From Terrimonas ginsenosidimutans (GTDB taxonomy: Bacteria > Bacteroidota > Bacteroidia > Chitinophagales > Chitinophagaceae): DNA of 64,000 bases. A program made the translations under genes and the position numbers. The stretch spans positions 1 through 64,000 of the forward strand of contig NZ_JAKLTR010000023.1 in assembly GCF_022012415.1 (NCBI RefSeq). The letters are read 5' to 3'. Below, piece by piece: positions 46,582-58,218 of the stretch (position 1 is the first letter of the stretch; every line of letters starts with the position of its first letter). The notes beneath the pieces were generated by a model that saw only the letters and a program-made list of their open reading frames with translations, was not told where the DNA came from and did not search any database.

Positions 46582-47637
46582 ATGATGAACAGAACAACGA
46601 TCATAAAAGCCGGTATCTGCTCTTACGGCATGAGCGGCAAACTTTTTCATGCACCATTCATCAATGCTCATCCGGGTTTCGAATTGTCAGCAATTGTGGA
46701 AAGGAGTAAGAATGAATCAAGGGAGAGATATCCTGAGTCGAAACTGGTGCGAGCTGTGGATGAGTTGTTTGAAGATGATTCATTACAATTGATCATCGTA
46801 AATACGCCTGTTCAAACGCATTTCGACTATGCAAAAAAAGCACTGCTCAAGGGCAAGCATGTGATAGTGGAAAAACCTTTTACTGTAACATCGGCACAGG
46901 CGCAGGAGTTGACCGATCTTGCCCATTCGCAGAACGTTCATCTTTTTGTATATCAGAATCGCCGCTATGATGGAGATTTCCTTGCGGTGAAAGAAGTGGT
47001 TCAATCAAAACTGATTGGTGATATAAAAGAGGCGGAGATCCGTTACGATCGTTATCGTCCGGAGATCAGCCCGAAAGTGCATAAAGAATCAGATCTGCCC
47101 GGTGCAGGGATCTCGTATGACCTGGGAGCCCACCTGGCGGATCAGGCATTGCAATTGTTTGGCTGGCCACAAGCAGTATTTGCGGATATGATGGCGATGC
47201 GTGATAAAAGTCCGGTGGATGATTATGTAGAGATCATTTTATATTATGCGGCACATCGTGTGCGGCTAAAAGCCTCCTGCTTTGTAAAGGAACCGGTACA
47301 GGAATATATCTTTAACGGGAGCCTGGGAACGTTCCTGCAAAAACGCTCTGATCTGCAGGAAACAATGCTGCTCAAAGGCGTGAAGCCTTCTGTTGAATCA
47401 TGGTGCCCGGCGCCGGATAAACCAGATGGATTTCTTCACACAACCGTTGATGGTAAAGACATCCGTGAAGAAAGGACCGCTGTGCCGGGTAATTATATGA
47501 ACTACTTCGAAGACGTGTACCAGGCATTGGTGAATGGCGCGCCAAATCCGGTTCCGGGGGAAGACGGAGTAAGATCCATACGGCTTATTGAAGCGGCGAA
47601 AGAAAGCGCCAGAGAGGGAAAGGTCGTCAAAGTTTAG
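46582..47637 (+). CDS. Gfo/Idh/MocA family oxidoreductase
   Basis: A 351-residue NAD(P)-dependent sugar-type oxidoreductase. The Rossmann motif is IKAGICSYGMSGKLFHAPFI (a divergent GxGxxG). The EKP motif that binds the cofactor is in HVIVEKPFTVT (about residue 96), and LFVYQNRRYDGDF and the substrate-domain GAGISYDLGAHLADQAL follow. The catalytic-type His is in that last motif. The family acts on sugars, inositols or biliverdin-like compounds; the substrate here is unknown. No sugar-uptake genes are nearby. Start is ATG-ATG at 46582. Confidence 0.88.
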   Translation: MMNRTTIIKAGICSYGMSGKLFHAPFINAHPGFELSAIVERSKNESRERYPESKLVRAVDELFEDDSLQLIIVNTPVQTHFDYAKKALLKGKHVIVEKPFTVTSAQAQELTDLAHSQNVHLFVYQNRRYDGDFLAVKEVVQSKLIGDIKEAEIRYDRYRPEISPKVHKESDLPGAGISYDLGAHLADQALQLFGWPQAVFADMMAMRDKSPVDDYVEIILYYAAHRVRLKASCFVKEPVQEYIFNGSLGTFLQKRSDLQETMLLKGVKPSVESWCPAPDKPDGFLHTTVDGKDIREERTAVPGNYMNYFEDVYQALVNGAPNPVPGEDGVRSIRLIEAAKESAREGKVVKV

Positions 47638-47674
47638 GATCACAAAGAATACTGAGTTGATAAACTATCTGCTG

Positions 47675-48970
47675 ATGAGATCACAACCAAAGTTCACAAG
47701 GAAGTATGGGTGGATATTATTGCCTTTTTTTCTTTTTTCATGTAGCTCTTCAAAAGTCTTTCGCTCTGCTAAACAGGATCTTTTAAACGAAAACGTTATT
47801 GGATCGGCGCACATCGGAATTTCTATTTATGATGTAGATTCCCGTAAGTTTATTTTTGACCATGATGGCGATAAATATTTCGTACCTGCCAGCAATACAA
47901 AGATACCTGCGTGCTATGCAGCTATGAAATACCTCGGGAACAAGTTGCCAGTATTTATTTATGAAGAAAAAGGAAAGGATACTATCGTAATTCAGGGGAT
48001 GGGCAATCCTGATTTTCTTCACCCGGATTTTAAAGACCAGGAAGCGTTCAGTTTTTTAAAAAAATATCGCCATATCATACTTTCCCATCAGAACTTCGAT
48101 GATTTTTTGGGAAATGGATGGGCATGGAATGACTACATGGAACCTTATATGGCAAACCGTGGAGAACTTCCTTTATACGGCAATATTGTTTTCGCTAAAT
48201 GGAAAAACGGCAGCTTGCACGTCATCCCTTCGTATTTTAAAAAGAACGAGGTGCCGCCGAACGATTTAAAGCCGGCGTTTGACGTTATGAAAGGGTTTCA
48301 ACTTAATCATTTCTTTTTCATACCCGGCACGAAGACCTCTGCTGAAATACCTTTTACACCTGATATCGAAGACCTTGCAGCTTTATTAGCCGATACATTA
48401 CATGTCAGTGTTGAGCCGCAGATCAGGCAAATGGGTAAGACGGCTGCATATTTCAGATCAAGATCCGTTGATTCCGTACTTGCTCCCATGATGCATCGCA
48501 GCGATAACTTCTTCGCGGAACAAATGCTGCTGATGGTAAGCCAGCAACTACTCGGTAAAATGAACGATGCTGACATCATAGACACTTTGCTGAAAACAGA
48601 CCTCGCCACTCTTCCCCAAAAACCAAAATGGGTTGACGGGTCAGGATTGAGCCGCTATAATTTATTTACACCGCAGGATTTTGTAATGATCCTTGATAAG
48701 ATGCGGTCGGAGTTCGGCATGGAAAGGATCAAAACCATTTTCCCTACCGGCGGCGAAGGAACGATCAGCAGCTATTACCAGGAAGAGAAAGGGCAGATCT
48801 TTGCAAAAACAGGTACGCTTTCCGGGGTGGTTGCCCTGAGTGGTTACCTGTATACAAAAAAAGGAAAGCTCTTATTGTTCTCTGTGCTGGTTAATAATCA
48901 TAACGGATCGGCAACAGATGTGAGAAGAGCTGTTGAAAGATTTATTCGTAAAACACGAAGCATTAAATAG
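47675..48970 (+). CDS. dacB: D-alanyl-D-alanine carboxypeptidase/endopeptidase (PBP4 type, lipoprotein)
   Basis: A 431-residue S13-family penicillin-binding protein that trims or cuts peptidoglycan cross-links. The signal has a lipobox LFSC (Cys about residue 21), so it is membrane anchored. Active-site motifs are complete: SNTK (SxxK, about residue 70), SDN in HRSDNFFAEQM (SxN), and AKTGTLSG (KTG). An inserted domain between SxxK and SxN is shorter than in E. coli PBP4. The ATG at 47675 is chosen because it directly precedes the lipoprotein signal. It is separated from the Gfo/Idh gene by 37 bases. Confidence 0.9.
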   Translation: MRSQPKFTRKYGWILLPFFLFSCSSSKVFRSAKQDLLNENVIGSAHIGISIYDVDSRKFIFDHDGDKYFVPASNTKIPACYAAMKYLGNKLPVFIYEEKGKDTIVIQGMGNPDFLHPDFKDQEAFSFLKKYRHIILSHQNFDDFLGNGWAWNDYMEPYMANRGELPLYGNIVFAKWKNGSLHVIPSYFKKNEVPPNDLKPAFDVMKGFQLNHFFFIPGTKTSAEIPFTPDIEDLAALLADTLHVSVEPQIRQMGKTAAYFRSRSVDSVLAPMMHRSDNFFAEQMLLMVSQQLLGKMNDADIIDTLLKTDLATLPQKPKWVDGSGLSRYNLFTPQDFVMILDKMRSEFGMERIKTIFPTGGEGTISSYYQEEKGQIFAKTGTLSGVVALSGYLYTKKGKLLLFSVLVNNHNGSATDVRRAVERFIRKTRSIK

Positions 48971-49100: not shown

Positions 49101-49193
49101 CCTGATGTCAGGAATCGAACCTCTTTGAAAAATTCTTCTTCCCGCCCCCAACCCTTTTCCTTTTCTCCCTGTATATGATCCCAAAGATCTTTT

Positions 49194-51020: not shown

Positions 51021-51566
51021 TTGCATCACGGCGGAGAGAATATAAATAGCATCATCAGCGGTTGCAGAAATAACGATCGCAGGTCCCAGGAGCTCTTGTA
51101 CAGGAATTTCTATGGGGCCATGATGTCTTTTTGTCTGCGCTATACGCAAAATGAACAGGATGCGCTCGAAGTTTTGAACACTGGTTTTTATAAAGTCTTT
51201 AAGAATATACACCAGTACGATGAGCAGAAGGCAGCGCTTTATACCTGGATCCGCACAATAGTGTTGAACACCTGTATCGATTTTATAAAAACTAAAAACG
51301 GGCGAATAGTACAGCAGGAACTGGATCAGGCGGCAGGTGTTGACCTGTCGCCTGAGGTGTTTAGTAAGATGTCTTCGGAAGAAATACTCCGTGTCATACG
51401 TAAGCTGCCACCTGCAACCCAGACCGTTTTCAATTTGTATGTAATGGAAGGGTATGCGCACAGGGAAATAGCGCAGCTTCTCCAGATCAGCGAAGGAACC
51501 AGCAAATGGCATCTCAGCGAAGCCCGTAAACAATTAAAAACAATGATCCGCCAGTTGAATGAGTGA
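51021..51566 (+). CDS. ECF-type RNA polymerase sigma factor
   Basis: A 181-residue ECF sigma factor. Region 2 spans about residues 20-95 (YRNFYGAMMSFCLRYTQNEQ and the -10-recognition helix ALYTWIRTIVLNTCIDFIK). Region 4 spans about 125-178 (LPPATQTVFNLYVMEGYAHR and the helix-turn-helix EIAQLLQISEGTSKWHLSEA). No region 3 is present. The start is a TTG at 51021: the frame is open 39 bases upstream with no ATG or GTG. The stop overlaps the start of the next gene by 8 bases, pointing to coupled translation with the likely anti-sigma factor. Confidence 0.92.
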   Translation: MHHGGENINSIISGCRNNDRRSQELLYRNFYGAMMSFCLRYTQNEQDALEVLNTGFYKVFKNIHQYDEQKAALYTWIRTIVLNTCIDFIKTKNGRIVQQELDQAAGVDLSPEVFSKMSSEEILRVIRKLPPATQTVFNLYVMEGYAHREIAQLLQISEGTSKWHLSEARKQLKTMIRQLNE

Positions 51567-53124
51567 ACGGTTACCATACGAAGAACAACTGCCGCAGCAT
51601 CTGCGTGACTTCCCCCTGCCGGATGAGAATGCGGCATGGGCGGATATGAAGCGCCGTCTTGATGAAGACGAAGACAATGGCGCCATTGTGTGGTGGAGGA
51701 AAGGGTGTGCACTATGGGCCGGCCTGCTGCTCATCGCTGCTTTGCTTATTACGGGATGGTGGTTTTTTAACAGGGAAAAGAATGACCGTGTTGCAAGCGG
51801 ACAGACAATAAATGATCGACCCGTTGCAGACGACGTTAAAACCCGCGACAAGGATACTTCCCTTCACGGATCACCAAAACTGCAAACAGAAATACTGCCG
51901 CGGGTAGATACTATTTCTTCCGCACGAAAGCGAAATGCAGCCATCAATAAATGGGAACAACAGCAGAAGGAAGCCGTATCTTCAGCTGAAATAAATGCAT
52001 CCGGCGAAACGGCGTCTCCAACTGAGGTAAACAGGAAAAAAATTGCAGATCCTGCTCCGGTTAAAGGAAAAGCAAAAGTATTGCAGGCGCCTGCGAAGAA
52101 GCCAACACCGGATACTGCGATCACCCGGTCCGATCTCCCGCTCGAAGTACTCAGCAATCCTACCACAGACAGCATCAGGCGCTTCATTGCGGGAGATCCA
52201 CAAATCCGCCAACCGCAGACGGTAGCTGCATCATCACCGACATTGCCGCTTGACAGTATCAGGGCCTTTGTCACTGGTGATACGATCGTTCAACAGAACA
52301 ATGACTCTACCGTGCTTTCACGGCAACACTGGCCGATCGATAGCATCAAAGCCTTTGTTAAAGGAGATACAGCAACAAACCGTTCCAATGATGCTGTAGC
52401 TTTGAAGACTGATAGCTTACCGTCAGTGGATAGCTCCATCAAAAAAACAGATACGACAGAGACAGCGTATTTTCTGTCTGCAGGAATTGCATTGACCCAG
52501 CAGTTACCGATCGCAGGTCAAAAAGCAGTTCCTTATGCCTCCCAGGGAAGGGAGTTTAGTCTGGCTGATTATATCCCTTCCGTTTATTTCAGGTTCAACA
52601 AAAAAGACCGTTGGTTCGTCCAGGGTGAATTCCGCTATGGCGCTCCTCAATACACGAAGCCGATCACGTATTCAATACTAACAGATACGAACGGGACCGC
52701 TCCGATAGCGCGCACAGAAAAGACCTTACAGAAAACTTACTATCATCAACTGCCAGTGAGTTTCAATTATTATCTCACACGCAACTGGGCGCTTGGCGCC
52801 GGCCTCGTCTGGAACCGCTTCAGCAAATCTGTATTTGAAGAAGATCAGCTTCAACGGGATCCGCTTAATCCATTCGATACTTTCCATGTAAAGGAAACAA
52901 TGGTCAGCAAAGACGCGGCAAAAGAGGGACTCTCCAGCTCCTACTTCCAGGGTTTGATCGAATCACAATACCAGTGGAAGAAATTCTCCTTCGGAGCACG
53001 CTATACATTCGGGCTAACACCCTATCTGCGGTTCACTTTGCCCGGGGAAGCCGAACGCAGAGAAAGGAATCAATCTCTCCAGTTCTTTATCCGGTACAAC
53101 CTCTGGACTAAAAGTTTAAAGTAA
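51559..53124 (+). CDS. Probable dual membrane-spanning anti-sigma factor (Dma-like)
   Basis: A 521-residue protein whose parts suggest it spans both membranes. It has a cytoplasmic N-terminus of about 48 residues (HLRDFPLPDENAAWADMKRR), one inner-membrane helix (about 50-70), and a long disordered periplasmic stretch (about 71-300) rich in Ala, Thr, Pro, Lys and Asp. The C-terminus (about 303-521) has beta-barrel character, with alternating aromatic strands and an OmpA/OmpX-like size. The periplasmic part carries three repeats of DSIxxFxxGD (204-213, 232-241, 261-270). The overlap with the sigma gene supports an anti-sigma role. The layout matches the Dma family described in Bacteroides thetaiotaomicron. 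Confidence 0.75.
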   Translation: MSERLPYEEQLPQHLRDFPLPDENAAWADMKRRLDEDEDNGAIVWWRKGCALWAGLLLIAALLITGWWFFNREKNDRVASGQTINDRPVADDVKTRDKDTSLHGSPKLQTEILPRVDTISSARKRNAAINKWEQQQKEAVSSAEINASGETASPTEVNRKKIADPAPVKGKAKVLQAPAKKPTPDTAITRSDLPLEVLSNPTTDSIRRFIAGDPQIRQPQTVAASSPTLPLDSIRAFVTGDTIVQQNNDSTVLSRQHWPIDSIKAFVKGDTATNRSNDAVALKTDSLPSVDSSIKKTDTTETAYFLSAGIALTQQLPIAGQKAVPYASQGREFSLADYIPSVYFRFNKKDRWFVQGEFRYGAPQYTKPITYSILTDTNGTAPIARTEKTLQKTYYHQLPVSFNYYLTRNWALGAGLVWNRFSKSVFEEDQLQRDPLNPFDTFHVKETMVSKDAAKEGLSSSYFQGLIESQYQWKKFSFGARYTFGLTPYLRFTLPGEAERRERNQSLQFFIRYNLWTKSLK

Positions 53125-53186: not shown

Positions 53187-55010
53187 TTAGCTGCGGAACA
53201 TCCGCTCCAACTGATCCTGCCGGAATTCAAGGTAGGTTGGATTACCATCCGGAGACATATTCGGTTGTTCGCAACTGAACAGGTCGGTGATCAGTTGCCG
53301 TTGTTCTCTTTCAGTAAGTCGAGTGCCGGTTTTTACCGCTTGTTGTTTCGCCAGGGAGCGAATGAGTTTTTCGCGCTTGGAGAACTTCACGTCATTACTG
53401 AAATGCTTGTATTGTTCGATGAGGATATCGATAATATGTTTCTCATGACCGGCTTCCACATCAGCTGGTGTGCCCTGTATCACAAAAGTATTTTTCCCGA
53501 ATGGTTCGATCTGGTATCCGAGCTGTTGAAGGTCCGGCATCAGTTCTTCAAGGATCACCGCATCGGCGGGTGTAAGTTCCAGTGTTGAGGGGAACATGCT
53601 TTGCTGGCTGGGAATGGATTTTCCGTGGCTGGCAGTGATCAGTTGTTCATACAAAATACGTTCATGCGCCGCCTGCTGGTGCACGAGCATAAATCCGTTT
53701 CCGGAGGGGACAGTGATATAGCTGTTCAGGATCTGGGCAAGATCTACTTCTTCAAATCGCTTTGCACGCGGATCTGCCGGATGAAGAGCGGGAGCATCAT
53801 CTTTTGATGTTTCCGGAAGCGGCTCATAAAAATCTTTCCAGTGCTTCAACTCCTGTTTTTGTTGTGAAGCTTCGATAAAATGTGCCTGATGCTTCTGCGT
53901 AAAACCTTTGAAGAGAGAAGAAGAAGATACGGCCGTTTTACGCTCTTCTGTAAATGGCTGCTGAATGGAAGAAAGCTGCTGTATTGATGCGTCAAGCTCA
54001 AAATCAAGCGTAGGTGTTACGCTGAATTGCGCCAGCGCATGTTTTACCGCTGCCTGTACAAAAGCATAGACGATCCTTTCATCTTCAAATTTGATCTCCT
54101 GTTTTGTCGGATGCACGTTCACATCAACCTGCGTGGGGTCGAGGTCGATGAACAACACATACATCGGGAAGCTGTCTCCGGGGATCATTTCCTGGTAGGC
54201 ATTCATCACCGCGTGATTCAGGTAGCCACTTTTAATAAAGCGGTTGTTGACAAAGAAATACTGATCACCACGTGTTTTCTTGGCTGTTTCAGGTTTGCCA
54301 ACAAAACCGGAGATGTTCATGTAATCCGTTTCTTCCTTTACTGCGACAAGCTTTGTATTATAATTGTTGCCAAGTAGCTGGATGATCCGTTGTTTCAGAC
54401 TTCCTGCTTCGAGGTGAAACAATTGTTGTCCATTATTGGTAAGAGTGAACAGAATATGCGGGAATGACATGGCAACGCGGGTGAATTCATCCACGATATG
54501 CCGCATCTCAGCTGCATTGCTTTTCAAAAAATTTCTTCTGGCAGGAACGTTAAAGAAGAGGTTCTTCATCGCGATGCTGGTACCGGTTGGTGTAGCGATC
54601 GGTTCCTGTTTTTTTACAACGCTGTTCTCCACTTCGATATAAACACCAGCTTCATCCCCGGCACGTTTCGATTTCAATTCAACCTGCGCAACAGCAGCAA
54701 TGGATGCCAGCGCTTCTCCCCGGAAACCCATGGTGCGGATATGGAATAGGTCGTCGATACTCTTGATCTTGGACGTGGCATGACGTTCAAAACACATACG
54801 GGCATCGGTTTCACTCATTCCTCCACCGTTATCAATCACCTGGATCAATGATTTTCCTGCGTCTGCCAGTATCAGGTGAATGGCCGTAGAGCCGGCATCT
54901 ACTGCATTCTCCATCAACTCCTTCACCGCGCTTGCGGGGCGTTGGATCACCTCACCCGCTGCGATCTGGTTAGCTATATTATCTGGTAATAAGAATATTT
55001 TATCTGTCAC
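53187..55010 (-). CDS. mutL: DNA mismatch repair protein MutL
   Basis: A 607-residue MutL. The N-terminal GHKL ATPase is intact: NIANQIAAGEVIQRPASAVKE, DNGGGMSETD, HATSKIKSIDDLF and TMGFRGEALASI. A Lys/Gln/Ser-rich linker spans about residues 330-420. The C-terminal dimerisation domain shows VHQQAAHERILYE where the endonuclease metal motif DQHAxxExxxxE is expected, so the Asp and His are replaced. The start codon is GTG at 55010, 19 bases after a -7 box. It acts with MutS, which is not in the window; the MutS-like ATPase at 21245 is a different type. Confidence 0.95.
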   Translation of the reverse strand: MTDKIFLLPDNIANQIAAGEVIQRPASAVKELMENAVDAGSTAIHLILADAGKSLIQVIDNGGGMSETDARMCFERHATSKIKSIDDLFHIRTMGFRGEALASIAAVAQVELKSKRAGDEAGVYIEVENSVVKKQEPIATPTGTSIAMKNLFFNVPARRNFLKSNAAEMRHIVDEFTRVAMSFPHILFTLTNNGQQLFHLEAGSLKQRIIQLLGNNYNTKLVAVKEETDYMNISGFVGKPETAKKTRGDQYFFVNNRFIKSGYLNHAVMNAYQEMIPGDSFPMYVLFIDLDPTQVDVNVHPTKQEIKFEDERIVYAFVQAAVKHALAQFSVTPTLDFELDASIQQLSSIQQPFTEERKTAVSSSSLFKGFTQKHQAHFIEASQQKQELKHWKDFYEPLPETSKDDAPALHPADPRAKRFEEVDLAQILNSYITVPSGNGFMLVHQQAAHERILYEQLITASHGKSIPSQQSMFPSTLELTPADAVILEELMPDLQQLGYQIEPFGKNTFVIQGTPADVEAGHEKHIIDILIEQYKHFSNDVKFSKREKLIRSLAKQQAVKTGTRLTEREQRQLITDLFSCEQPNMSPDGNPTYLEFRQDQLERMFRS

Positions 55011-55302: not shown

Positions 55303-58218
55303 ATGATGAGGATGTACCGGCTCTTACTTGCCTTATTGGTGACGACCCCGCTTTTCGCTGATGCACAACGCTCCAGTTCGCTCGGTCAGCAGGAATGGGT
55401 AGACAGTGTGTTTAAAAGTCTGACGGAAGAACAACGTATTGCACAGCTGATCGTGATCAGGGCTCACTCCAATCTTGGGGCAGATCACGTGGCAAAAGTT
55501 AAAAGTGATATCACGCAGTATAACGTTGGAGCCCTTTGCTTTTTCCAGGGCGGTCCTGTCCGGCAGGCGAACCTTACAAACCTTTATCAAAGCCTGGCGA
55601 AAACACCGATCATGGTGACCATCGACGGGGAATATGGTTTAGGTATGCGCCTGGATAGTGTAACACGATTCCCTTACCAGATCACGCTGGGCGCTATGCA
55701 GGATACCGCGCTCGTCTATAAAATGGGAATTGCTGTTGGAGAACAATGCAAGAGACTTGGTGTGCACGTTAACTATGCCCCCGTAGTTGATATCAATAAT
55801 AATCCCAATAACCCGGTGATCGGTTACAGATCATTCGGTGAGGATAAATACAAAGTATCCCGCTTAGGGGTGAGTTACATGCGCGGTATGCAGGATGCAG
55901 GCATCATGGCTTGCGCCAAACATTTTCCGGGTCATGGTGACGTGGATGTTGACTCACATTTTGATCTTCCTGTCATTAAAAAAGTACGCAGCCAGCTGGA
56001 CTCGCTGGAACTGGTCCCGTTCCGTGCAATGATCGAAGCCGGCGTTGGCAGCATGATGGTGGCTCACCTGTTCATTCCCGCTATAGATAAGACGGCTAAC
56101 AGAGCTACATCTATTTCAAAGGCCAGCATTACCGGCATTCTGAGAAAAGATCTCGGTTATGATGGACTTACATTTACCGACGCACTGGAGATGAAAGGTG
56201 TTGCCAAATTCTTTCCGGGAGGAACTATTTCAGTGGAGGCGCTGATCGCCGGGAATGATATGCTTTGTTTACCGGCAAGTGTCCCAGAAACAATTGATGC
56301 GGTAAAGAAAGCGATCACGGAAAAAAAACTTACCTGGGATGACATCAATGCCAAATGCATAAAAGTGCTGGTAGAGAAGTACAAACTTGGAATGGCGAAT
56401 ATCAAACCCATTGACACAAATAACCTGTTGAATGATATCAACTCAAAAACGGATGAAATAAGAAAGGAAGTGTCAAGAAAAGCGCTCACCTGGGTGAGGA
56501 TGGTCAATCCGCTCGGCTTCCGTAAGGAATATCTCAGCCTGCCGCTTGGCAGGGAAAAGAAGATCGCCTATGTTGGCTTTGGTACAACGGAACTTAATGC
56601 GTTCGGAAAGCGATTGAAAGATGATCTTGGCGCAGACACGTATTTCTATTCTTATAAAGACGGAATGTCCAAAGGTGGTGCTCTTGTAAAGGCGATCTAT
56701 GAGGGAAAGTATGATGCGGTGGTGTTAGGTATTCATGGAGTTAACCTTGGCCGTTCAAATAACTATGGCATCAGCAAAGAAGCGATCAGTGTGTGGAATC
56801 AACTGAACGCGGGAAATGCGATCACGATGGTATTTGGTAATGTATTGTCAATGGCTAATTTCTGCGCCGCACAATCGCTTGTTGCCTGCAATGAGAATGA
56901 CGATATTTTTCAAAATACAGCGGCTGACTGGCTCCAGGGACAATTTGTGTCAGAAGGAACATTACCTGTCCGGGTGTGTAATTTTAAATATGGCGAAGGG
57001 CTGAAATTTCCTTTGGGAAAAATGAATTTGTTCCCGGTGGGAGAATCGAAGTTCAGTGCCGTTGATTCAATTGCTACCGATGCGATCGCCAAACAGGCTT
57101 TTCCCGGTTGTGTGATCCTTGCAGCAAAAGACGGAAAGATCGTTTACCATAAAGCATTCGGTCAGTATAGATATGAGCCATCTGAGCCGGTAACGCTCGA
57201 GAGCATTTATGATCTCGCTTCTGTAACAAAAATTTCCGCCACTACTGTTGCCGTGATGAAACTGTATGAAGATGATAAGATCGGGCTGGATAAAAAACTT
57301 AGTACCTACCTGCCGTATCTGAAAGGGACAAATAAAGCAAACCTGCTGGTAAAAGATGTTCTATTGCACCAGGCGGGATTGATCCCGTTCATACAGTTTT
57401 ATAAAGAAACACTTACCGCCTCCGGTTTGCCCAATCCATCCATCTATGCAACATCTTATTCAGCTGAATTTCCCCAACGCGTTGCAAGCGGCATGTATAT
57501 CCGGAAAGACTGGCGGGATACCCTGCACAAGCGGATCGTCGATAGTAGGCTTGGGGCAAAGAATGCTTATGTATACAGCGACCTCGACTTTATCTTTCTT
57601 GGAGAAATTGTAGAAGCTGTTACAAAAATGCCACTCGATAAATACATGCAGGATAGCTTCTATGCAAAGATGAATATGACAACGACCGGTTTTCTTCCGC
57701 TGACACGGTTCGCGAAAGAAAATATCATTCCCACAGAGAACGATAATTTTTTCCGCCAGCAACTTTTAACCGGAGATGTGCATGATGAGGGCGCGTCTAT
57801 GTTTGGGGGTGTTGCAGGACATGCGGGGCTCTTTTCTGATGCGTACGATCTGGCAAAATTGTACCAAATGTTGCTCAATGGTGGCGAGCTCAATGGCCGG
57901 CGTTTCCTGGATCTTGAAACGATCCGCCTGTTTACTGCCTATCAAAGCAAATTCAGCCGCCGTGGCTATGGTTATGATAAGCCGGAGAAAGATAATGCAA
58001 CAAGAAAAGAACCATACCCGTCTTCGCTGGCATCACCGCAAACTTTCGGGCATACCGGATATACCGGGACCTGTGTATGGACTGATCCGAAGAATAACCT
58101 GATCTATATTTTCCTTTCGAACAGGGTTTATCCTACACGGGAGAATTCGAAATTATCGACATTGCTGGTGAGGTCTAAGATCCAGGATGCGATCTACAAG
58201 GCGGTTGGAATGAATTGA
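55303..58218 (+). CDS. GH3 (NagZ-like) hydrolase fused to a beta-lactamase-type serine hydrolase
   Basis: A 971-residue exported two-enzyme protein. After the signal peptide (LLLALLVTTPLFADAQ) comes a GH3 domain (about 25-400) with the NagZ-type KHFPGHGDVDVDSHFDLP and the nucleophile Asp in LTFTDALEMKG. A middle GH3 C-terminal-like region extends to about 590. Residues 590-970 form a class-C-beta-lactamase-like domain: SxxK in LASVTKISATT, YSD in YVYSDLDF (the YxN place), and HTGYTGT near the end. Such fusions occur in Bacteroidota and suggest a cell-wall recycling or trimming enzyme that cuts GlcNAc-anhMurNAc and peptides. It is not membrane anchored. Confidence 0.85.
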   Translation: MMRMYRLLLALLVTTPLFADAQRSSSLGQQEWVDSVFKSLTEEQRIAQLIVIRAHSNLGADHVAKVKSDITQYNVGALCFFQGGPVRQANLTNLYQSLAKTPIMVTIDGEYGLGMRLDSVTRFPYQITLGAMQDTALVYKMGIAVGEQCKRLGVHVNYAPVVDINNNPNNPVIGYRSFGEDKYKVSRLGVSYMRGMQDAGIMACAKHFPGHGDVDVDSHFDLPVIKKVRSQLDSLELVPFRAMIEAGVGSMMVAHLFIPAIDKTANRATSISKASITGILRKDLGYDGLTFTDALEMKGVAKFFPGGTISVEALIAGNDMLCLPASVPETIDAVKKAITEKKLTWDDINAKCIKVLVEKYKLGMANIKPIDTNNLLNDINSKTDEIRKEVSRKALTWVRMVNPLGFRKEYLSLPLGREKKIAYVGFGTTELNAFGKRLKDDLGADTYFYSYKDGMSKGGALVKAIYEGKYDAVVLGIHGVNLGRSNNYGISKEAISVWNQLNAGNAITMVFGNVLSMANFCAAQSLVACNENDDIFQNTAADWLQGQFVSEGTLPVRVCNFKYGEGLKFPLGKMNLFPVGESKFSAVDSIATDAIAKQAFPGCVILAAKDGKIVYHKAFGQYRYEPSEPVTLESIYDLASVTKISATTVAVMKLYEDDKIGLDKKLSTYLPYLKGTNKANLLVKDVLLHQAGLIPFIQFYKETLTASGLPNPSIYATSYSAEFPQRVASGMYIRKDWRDTLHKRIVDSRLGAKNAYVYSDLDFIFLGEIVEAVTKMPLDKYMQDSFYAKMNMTTTGFLPLTRFAKENIIPTENDNFFRQQLLTGDVHDEGASMFGGVAGHAGLFSDAYDLAKLYQMLLNGGELNGRRFLDLETIRLFTAYQSKFSRRGYGYDKPEKDNATRKEPYPSSLASPQTFGHTGYTGTCVWTDPKNNLIYIFLSNRVYPTRENSKLSTLLVRSKIQDAIYKAVGMN

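Follow-up and report, generated by a model that had tools for sequence, protein, structure and literature searches.

Positions 1 to 64,000 of contig NZ_JAKLTR010000023.1 of Terrimonas ginsenosidimutans (the window, 64,000 nucleotides) hold a gene for an extracytoplasmic function (ECF) σ factor that overlaps by 8 bases the gene for a predicted anti-σ factor of the dual-membrane (Dma) type. A lipoprotein gene ends 39 bases before the σ start, and a putative promoter lies in front of the lipoprotein gene. The coordinates of all features are collected in Table 1; for the three genes and for the overlap they agree with the initial annotation, which had also named the σ factor as ECF. The σ protein matches the Pfam domains Sigma70_r4_2 (2.2e-14) and Sigma70_r2 (3e-13) and scores 88.8 bits against TIGR02985, under the cut-off of 126.4 bits. 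Taken as a whole, the locus is probably a Dma-type envelope sensor within an autoregulated operon.

The anti-σ protein was modelled with AlphaFold2 from an alignment of 37 rows, i.e., the window protein and 36 relatives, from which L102, L105 and L132 (cut by contig ends) and L149 were excluded (mean pLDDT 68). The model contains N-terminal helices at residues 6-9, 11-15 and 23-39 and a helix at residues 46-70, which includes the only transmembrane (TM) segment, placed at 52-70 by hydropathy. Residues ~77-300 are without structure, pLDDT being below 50 over most of 77-286, and strands, eight as counted from the DSSP line, occupy residues 304-520 with pLDDT mostly above 90. The best solved matches found by Foldseek were OmpA and Ail (E 8e-6 to 3e-5). 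When residues 302-519 were compared using VIA-align, the matches were OmpW (Z 14.7, rmsd 3.1, 151 residues), OprF (Z 14.7, rmsd 2.6, 124 residues) and OmpA (Z 13.2, rmsd 3.3, 134 residues); since these and others match the model alike, they define its fold class and not its family. The Pfam match of the barrel to OMP_b-brl_2 is weak (1.3e-4, 22.5 bits against a cut-off of 27), and because it is below threshold the barrel call rests on the fold comparison. Searching solved structures by sequence, with two of the alignments, gave nothing convincing. The N-terminus of the modelled barrel would lie on the periplasmic side, which fits a tether coming from the inner membrane. The build proposed initially, with an anti-σ-like tail, an inner-membrane helix, a disordered stretch and an eight-strand barrel in one chain, is thus borne out by AlphaFold2 and hydropathy, and the C-terminal fold is OmpW/OmpA-like.

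Conservation is seen at both ends of the protein. Residues P21, W27, M30 and L34 of the N-terminus are invariant across the 37 rows, and barrel residues are conserved over the 36 relatives (P340, P363, G415 and G479, for example, are invariant). The motif W-x2-[MIVL]-x3-[LIM] is present within the first 60 residues of 78 out of 78 partners, with the W at residue 33 or earlier; when the first 45 residues were shuffled as a control, 376 of 7800 trials gave it. As the motif accompanies all partner types found beside this σ clade, the N-terminus may be the σ-binding part. The tether measures 171-363 amino acids (median 231) in the 37 rows, differs by 0.88 on average between pairs and has no cysteine. 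In the window protein it contains three copies of DSI[RK]xF[IV]xGD, preserved at the protein level although no repeat was detected in the DNA; a DSIxxF-type motif was found in 0 of 36 relatives. Perhaps these repeats are a docking motif.

The Dma kind has already been described in Bacteroides thetaiotaomicron, where Dma1 and Dma2 go with Das1 and Das2 (PMC13088901). According to the available part of that account, Dma2 has in common with the window protein an anti-σ N-terminus, one TM helix, a long disordered tether, a C-terminal barrel and an adjacent ECF σ gene, and when dma2 is deleted, das2 and the genes around it go up strongly (PMC13088901). The latter effect, as far as this partial source describes it, fits the autoregulated operon predicted in the window. 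By architecture, then, the window protein joins the Dma kind as set out there; its likeness to Dma1-3 and to ECF21 is one of domain order alone. We consider Dma-type wiring very likely, and with a single chain tying the outer membrane to the σ factor, direct signalling from one to the other, as initially suggested, is conceivable. The part of that suggestion which dispenses with a protease relay finds no support in the present results.

Other known systems are wired differently. In cell-surface signalling with a FecR-type anti-σ factor and a TonB-dependent transducer, an outer-membrane event controls an ECF σ factor, and receptor and anti-σ factor are two proteins, whereas the window locus has one chain. 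Many of the other σ partners in the same genome look FecR-like (~320-430 amino acids, TM segment near residue 85-125). In the RseA/σE system, an inner-membrane anti-σ factor holds the ECF σ factor and the state of outer-membrane proteins is the signal; RseA itself lacks a barrel, and its cleavage falls to another protein, a protease able to detect outer-membrane proteins that are unfolded, while in the window the barrel lies within the anti-σ factor itself.

A scan of named genomes with the σ alignment listed at least 79 loci, from which the barrel-type, short-type and macroglobulin counts given here are largely drawn; the loci share ancestry and the counts are not independent, although the spacers of the promoter motif differ. 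By title or genus all are Bacteroidota, except L162, titled only "bacterium". The barrel clade comprises 40 loci (L101-L139 and L149), or 41 with the window, and its partners, where uncut, are 439-661 amino acids long with the same build as the window anti-σ factor. The near relatives L012-L015 have σ, anti-σ and a convergent mutL, with a dacB-like carboxypeptidase gene upstream. The locus is more than a chance arrangement, because the σ/anti-σ pair recurs in several Chitinophagaceae genera, often between dacB and mutL. Anti-σ matches at E 0.001 were found in 9 of 58 related genomes besides its own, and in a family sample of 147 genomes, own genome included, the anti-σ profile at 1e-8 matched 64, of which 22 exceeded 150 bits; the only other genome of the genus in this sample (G001) had no profile match.

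A protein search of the 7.14-Mb genome of T. ginsenosidimutans with the anti-σ factor retrieved no match but itself at E 1. The same genome has 58 matches to σ region 4, of which the 51 above cut-off were inspected (one is without a σ frame) and the 7 below were excluded. Three further Dma-like partners (C45, C41 and C23:640772) are among them; two have a Pfam barrel (3.4e-7 and 4.7e-14) and the third has no such match. Another partner, at G000:C56:314978, has the N-terminal motif three times in tandem (PPANAW, PPATAW, PPASAW) ahead of the TM segment, which might enable it to hold several σ molecules.

The putative promoter ends 18 bases before the ATG of the lipoprotein gene, and comparison of related loci supports it. 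The dyad CCAAC-N18(±1)-GTAT is present in 20 of 27 upstream regions; in 20 shuffled sets the best dyad reached 4-6 at most. Of the 41 barrel-clade loci, counting the window, 28 have the motif at a score of at least 7. So do 10 of 10 operons headed by the lipoprotein gene, in which the -10 part precedes the start codon picked by the script by 4-25 bases; four of these picked starts overlap the motif, and an ATG further on is probably the true one. In the 2.3 kb before the σ gene, CCAAC-N17..20-GTA[TC] occurs in 33 of 38 barrel-type loci (0.04 expected per locus; L110 and L111, with fewer than 600 bases upstream, and the window are not counted) and in 19 of 29 short-type loci (0.15 expected), the expected numbers being taken from the remaining sequence of the same loci. 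Lipoprotein genes linked to a σ gene have the motif in 2 of 2 cases, one of them the L101 genome again and so only one new, and unlinked homologues in 0 of 15. It is highly probable that the operon is autoregulated and includes the lipoprotein gene. The σ factor most likely drives mainly its own operon, to which the lipoprotein belongs in the window's subclade.

A stricter form of the motif gave 87 matches over the 147 family genomes versus 45 for the reversed control (summed). Six are found immediately in front of an anti-σ match, strong or weaker (G014, G059, G072, G123, G126 and G146), and one lies 2.9 kb upstream of such a match (G109), the rest being mostly away from the operon; in G126 and G059 the motif directly adjoins other genes ahead of σ, whose products are secreted or lipoprotein-like. 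The window site, whose -35 part is CCCCAACC, falls outside the stricter pattern, and the sole stricter match in the same genome is the L212 site, followed ~650 bases on by a gene whose product looks secreted. Within this genome, the strongest candidate for an additional target is a pair of tandem promoter-like sites (G000:C34:343821-344397, sites at 343821 and 344369), which precede an open frame of at least 446 amino acids of unsettled reality, its first start 160 bases past the second site. A conserved block, TGTTTAAATAGTGTTATAATCG or near it, is found between promoter and σ start in L114, L115, L117, L128, L129, L133, L136 and L139; it is a candidate leader element or second promoter in one subclade.

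The lipoprotein has the lipobox LSFNC with the cysteine at position 19, and the CQKE after the lipobox cysteine presumably resembles Bacteroidota surface-export signals. In its model (12 rows, mean pLDDT 83), a CarboxypepD_reg/NTE-like domain at residues 40-120 (matched to the NTE of SusC BT3090, Z 11.9, rmsd 2.0, 78 residues) is followed by a ZU5-like region at 118-280 (ankyrin ZU5, Z 9.7, rmsd 3.5, 130 residues), Ig-like domains at 280-462 and a C-terminal beta domain at 467-593; LpqH was matched with Z 10.4 within the Ig-like/C-terminal beta part. The gene stands directly before the σ gene in 8 of the 37 barrel-type loci with upstream sequence, at a gap of 24-91 bases. It is one gene further away in L101, and in L109 a homologue lies downstream of the anti-σ gene; L126 and L135 have it duplicated in tandem before σ. 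G101 has the lipoprotein-σ-anti-σ trio with neither dacB nor mutL nearby. A homologue at 1e-20 is present in 38 of the 147 family genomes; the three with the best scores, the window's included, are the only ones that adjoin the anti-σ gene among the 22 genomes with a strong anti-σ match. The lipoprotein had been proposed as the ligand-binding component. A shared predicted promoter would place it in the operon in the window's subclade, but we reject it as an invariable partner on the count of 8 in 37. The sequence comparisons favour an operon product over a ligand receptor.

The σ gene of the window starts with TTG and has no ATG or GTG alternative. In the barrel clade (41 loci, window included) the σ starts are TTG in 39, CTG in one and unclear in one, and the anti-σ gene begins with ATG in 37 of 40 loci and also in the window. 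The 29 short-class σ genes start with CTG (10), TTG (7), GTG (7) or ATG (5), where a CTG start was read from the lack of ATG, GTG or TTG at the homologous place. These apparent CTG starts belong to nine Chitinophaga loci and one Niastella locus (L152, L163, L165-L168, L170, L171, L175 and L178); gene callers restricted to ATG, GTG and TTG would cut such σ factors short by ~30 residues. A weakly translated σ factor beside a well-translated anti-σ factor makes a sensible resting state, in a habit common to other genes.

The σ tree has 88 rows and was built with a quick method, support being given as SH-aLRT only and "barrel" being assigned from partner length. In it, the 29 loci with barrel-less partners among L140-L178 (the short class) form one clade (SH-aLRT 99) inside a 71-row group (97) that otherwise consists of long partners or cut ends; long partners are also found outside the group. 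Barrel loss in the short-class clade is the simplest reading. The short partners (190-317 amino acids) have the same N-terminal motif, a TM segment by hydropathy in most and no room for a barrel. Upstream of σ in 27 of 28 short-class loci (in L148 as the second open frame) is a protein of 265-305 amino acids with a lipoprotein-like start, in whose first 100 residues Pfam found nothing; it is of another family than the window lipoprotein. Eight more distant long partners include six with a Pfam barrel-type match, some below cut-off, and two with none (L154 and L169).

A different kind of partner is seen in Saprospiraceae. The L172 partner (1766 amino acids) joins the N-terminus and membrane helix to MG2, A2M, bait-region and TED domains (TED 7.1e-33), i.e., to a complete alpha-2-macroglobulin. 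L203, L204 and L205 resemble it (TED 1e-27 to 6e-35), each with a σ-profile gene upstream, which in L205 is 428 bases away as called; L179 has a weak match to TED (0.0016). The thioester motif GCFEQ is present in four of the five, L179 being the one without it, and three of the five have a TonB plug-like segment. L172 and L179 are titled Saprospiraceae, and the genomes behind L203-L205 (G333, G388 and G389) share one family code. Judged by its domains, this form is possibly a sensor of protease attack.

We propose the following mechanism. With the barrel lodged in the outer membrane, the N-terminus of the anti-σ factor would keep the σ factor bound at the inner membrane. At rest the anti-σ protein would be in excess, as its gene starts with ATG and that of σ with the weak TTG. 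Should the barrel be misassembled, disturbed or engaged from outside, the anti-σ factor would let go of σ, most likely through cleavage. The freed σ factor would then drive mainly its own operon, and lipoprotein, σ and anti-σ would rise together until the lock is restored. Our first choice for the trigger, ahead of ligand binding and tension, is the barrel itself: left unassembled or damaged, it would cause the anti-σ factor to be cut and σ to be freed. That barrel assembly or integrity is the signal, with proteolytic release, is held tentatively, at somewhat less than an even chance.

An alternative is that the barrel receives an external ligand, which the lipoprotein as its partner would bind at the surface, and that the tether relays the signal to the N-terminus. 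In the window's subclade the lipoprotein gene is predicted to head the operon, the multi-domain beta fold of its product and SusC-NTE-like N-terminal domain fit a surface or outer-membrane protein, and the barrel-less sister class has its own lipoprotein-like protein upstream of σ. However, few barrel-type loci have the lipoprotein directly before σ, it adjoins a strong anti-σ match in only 3 of 22 family-sample genomes, G160 keeps dacB-lipoprotein-mutL with neither σ nor anti-σ, and a disordered tether of 231 amino acids could hardly carry a rigid signal; a ligand receptor is therefore unlikely. The tether might also serve as an entropic spring or ruler, such that a change in periplasm width or outer-membrane attachment alters the tension and σ is released uncut. 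Such a role would suit a tether that keeps its length and lacks cysteine while its sequence is hardly conserved, but the lengths spread twofold, and a stretched 171-residue tether would span ~60 nm (at an assumed 0.36 nm per residue), far beyond the usual periplasm, which makes the spring very improbable. The sister σ clade, with its short partners and the same N-terminal motif, speaks for a third possibility, in which the barrel is a mere anchor or leftover fusion and the inner-membrane part governs release, as in short anti-σ factors. Against it stand the conserved barrel residues, the confidently predicted strands and the spread of long, barrel-type partners over the σ tree, and we think it improbable.

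Several observations weigh against the Dma-type sensor in its autoregulated operon. The barrel-less partners of the sister clade indicate that a barrel is dispensable to such a circuit, and a Pfam barrel match was not seen in several relatives (L101, L120, L154 and L169). Mirror-tree correlations over 37 rows are 0.84 for σ with the N-terminus and 0.85 for σ with the barrel (0.65 and 0.73, respectively, given mutL, 20 rows); as they are alike for the two parts, they reveal no special co-evolution of the N-terminus with σ. The promoter motif is missing from the 2.3 kb upstream in 5 of 38 barrel-type loci (L101 has one further upstream) and 10 of 29 short-type loci, and from the upstream regions of 7 of 8 more distant long-partner loci and 5 of 5 alpha-2-macroglobulin loci. 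Within the window alone it is not above chance (2 matches versus 0.86 expected), and in the whole genome CCAACN{17,19}GTATA has 34 matches versus 47 for the reversed control. Among the 30 sites inspected out of 34, most fall inside long open frames, and the window site at 49148 is alone in being followed by a clear gene start within 60 bases. A large motif-defined regulon in this genome is thus not supported by the counts, and by sequence the motif appears convincing at the operon only. Weak starts are not specific to σ genes either: mutL starts with TTG (12), GTG (6) or ATG (1) in the 19 loci for which a start could be placed, and 49 other σ genes of the same genome comprise 16 with only TTG or GTG candidates, 19 with an ATG candidate, 5 with none and 9 with no profile match. 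The idea of a conserved weak start peculiar to the window-type σ factor is weakened by these numbers (18 of 19 and 16 of 49).

The conserved flanks of the operon are envelope or cell-wall genes, namely the Peptidase_S13 gene and a fusion of GH3 with a beta-lactamase-family domain (55303-58218).

Table 1. Features of the σ/anti-σ locus in the window, and macroglobulin-type partners in related loci
Feature	Coordinates	Strand	Remarks
D-Ala-D-Ala carboxypeptidase gene (Peptidase_S13, called dacB), flank	47588..48970	+	upstream of promoter, outside predicted operon
Predicted autoregulatory ECF-type promoter	49148..49175	+	CCAAC (-35-like), 18 spacer, GTATA (-10-like); comparative support
Lipoprotein gene, 595 aa	49194..50981	+	predicted first gene of operon in window's subclade
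ECF σ factor gene, 181 aa	51021..51566	+	TTG start
Dual-membrane anti-σ factor gene, Dma type, 521 aa	51559..53124	+	ATG start
Anti-σ residues 1-39, cytoplasmic anti-σ-like N-terminus	51559..51675	+	
Anti-σ residues 46-70, inner-membrane helix	51694..51768	+	hydropathy, AlphaFold2
Anti-σ residues 71-301, disordered periplasmic tether, 231 aa	51769..52461	+	AlphaFold2
Three DSI[RK]xF[IV]xGD copies in tether	52168..52371	+	starts 52168, 52252, 52339
Anti-σ residues 302-520, C-terminal 8-strand outer-membrane barrel	52462..53118	+	AlphaFold2, fold comparison
mutL, flank	53187..55010	-	convergent, conserved neighbour
Alpha-2-macroglobulin-fused anti-σ	L172:6534-11831		
Alpha-2-macroglobulin-fused anti-σ	L179:6528-11732		
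Alpha-2-macroglobulin-fused anti-σ	L203:2912-8308		
Alpha-2-macroglobulin-fused anti-σ	L204:1743-6677	-	
Alpha-2-macroglobulin-fused anti-σ	L205:2519-8008		

What is new here is the promoter motif, the defined operon and the proposed sensor exchange. The available part of the B. thetaiotaomicron Dma account does not state the signal or a direct promoter (PMC13088901). Literature searches, with most subscription papers outside their reach, found no paper joining an ECF σ factor with a TTG start codon, none linking anti-σ, alpha-2-macroglobulin and Bacteroidetes and, from 2022 on, none on anti-σ factor, Bacteroidota, envelope stress response and outer-membrane protein together. It is possible, if rather doubtful, that these partners make up a family of exchangeable sensors, in which a fixed σ-binding N-terminus and membrane helix, next to the same σ clade, are joined to a barrel, to a short tail (preceded by its own lipoprotein-like gene) or to an alpha-2-macroglobulin. 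The barrel form would report on the assembly of its own barrel and the macroglobulin form on protease attack, and the barrel and short forms of Chitinophagaceae would share the autoregulatory promoter. The promoter motif, the defined operon and the barrel-less sister clade together make the role of the barrel directly testable, and, judging from the alpha-2-macroglobulin form, a single σ lock may have been coupled anew to envelope sensors of very different kinds.

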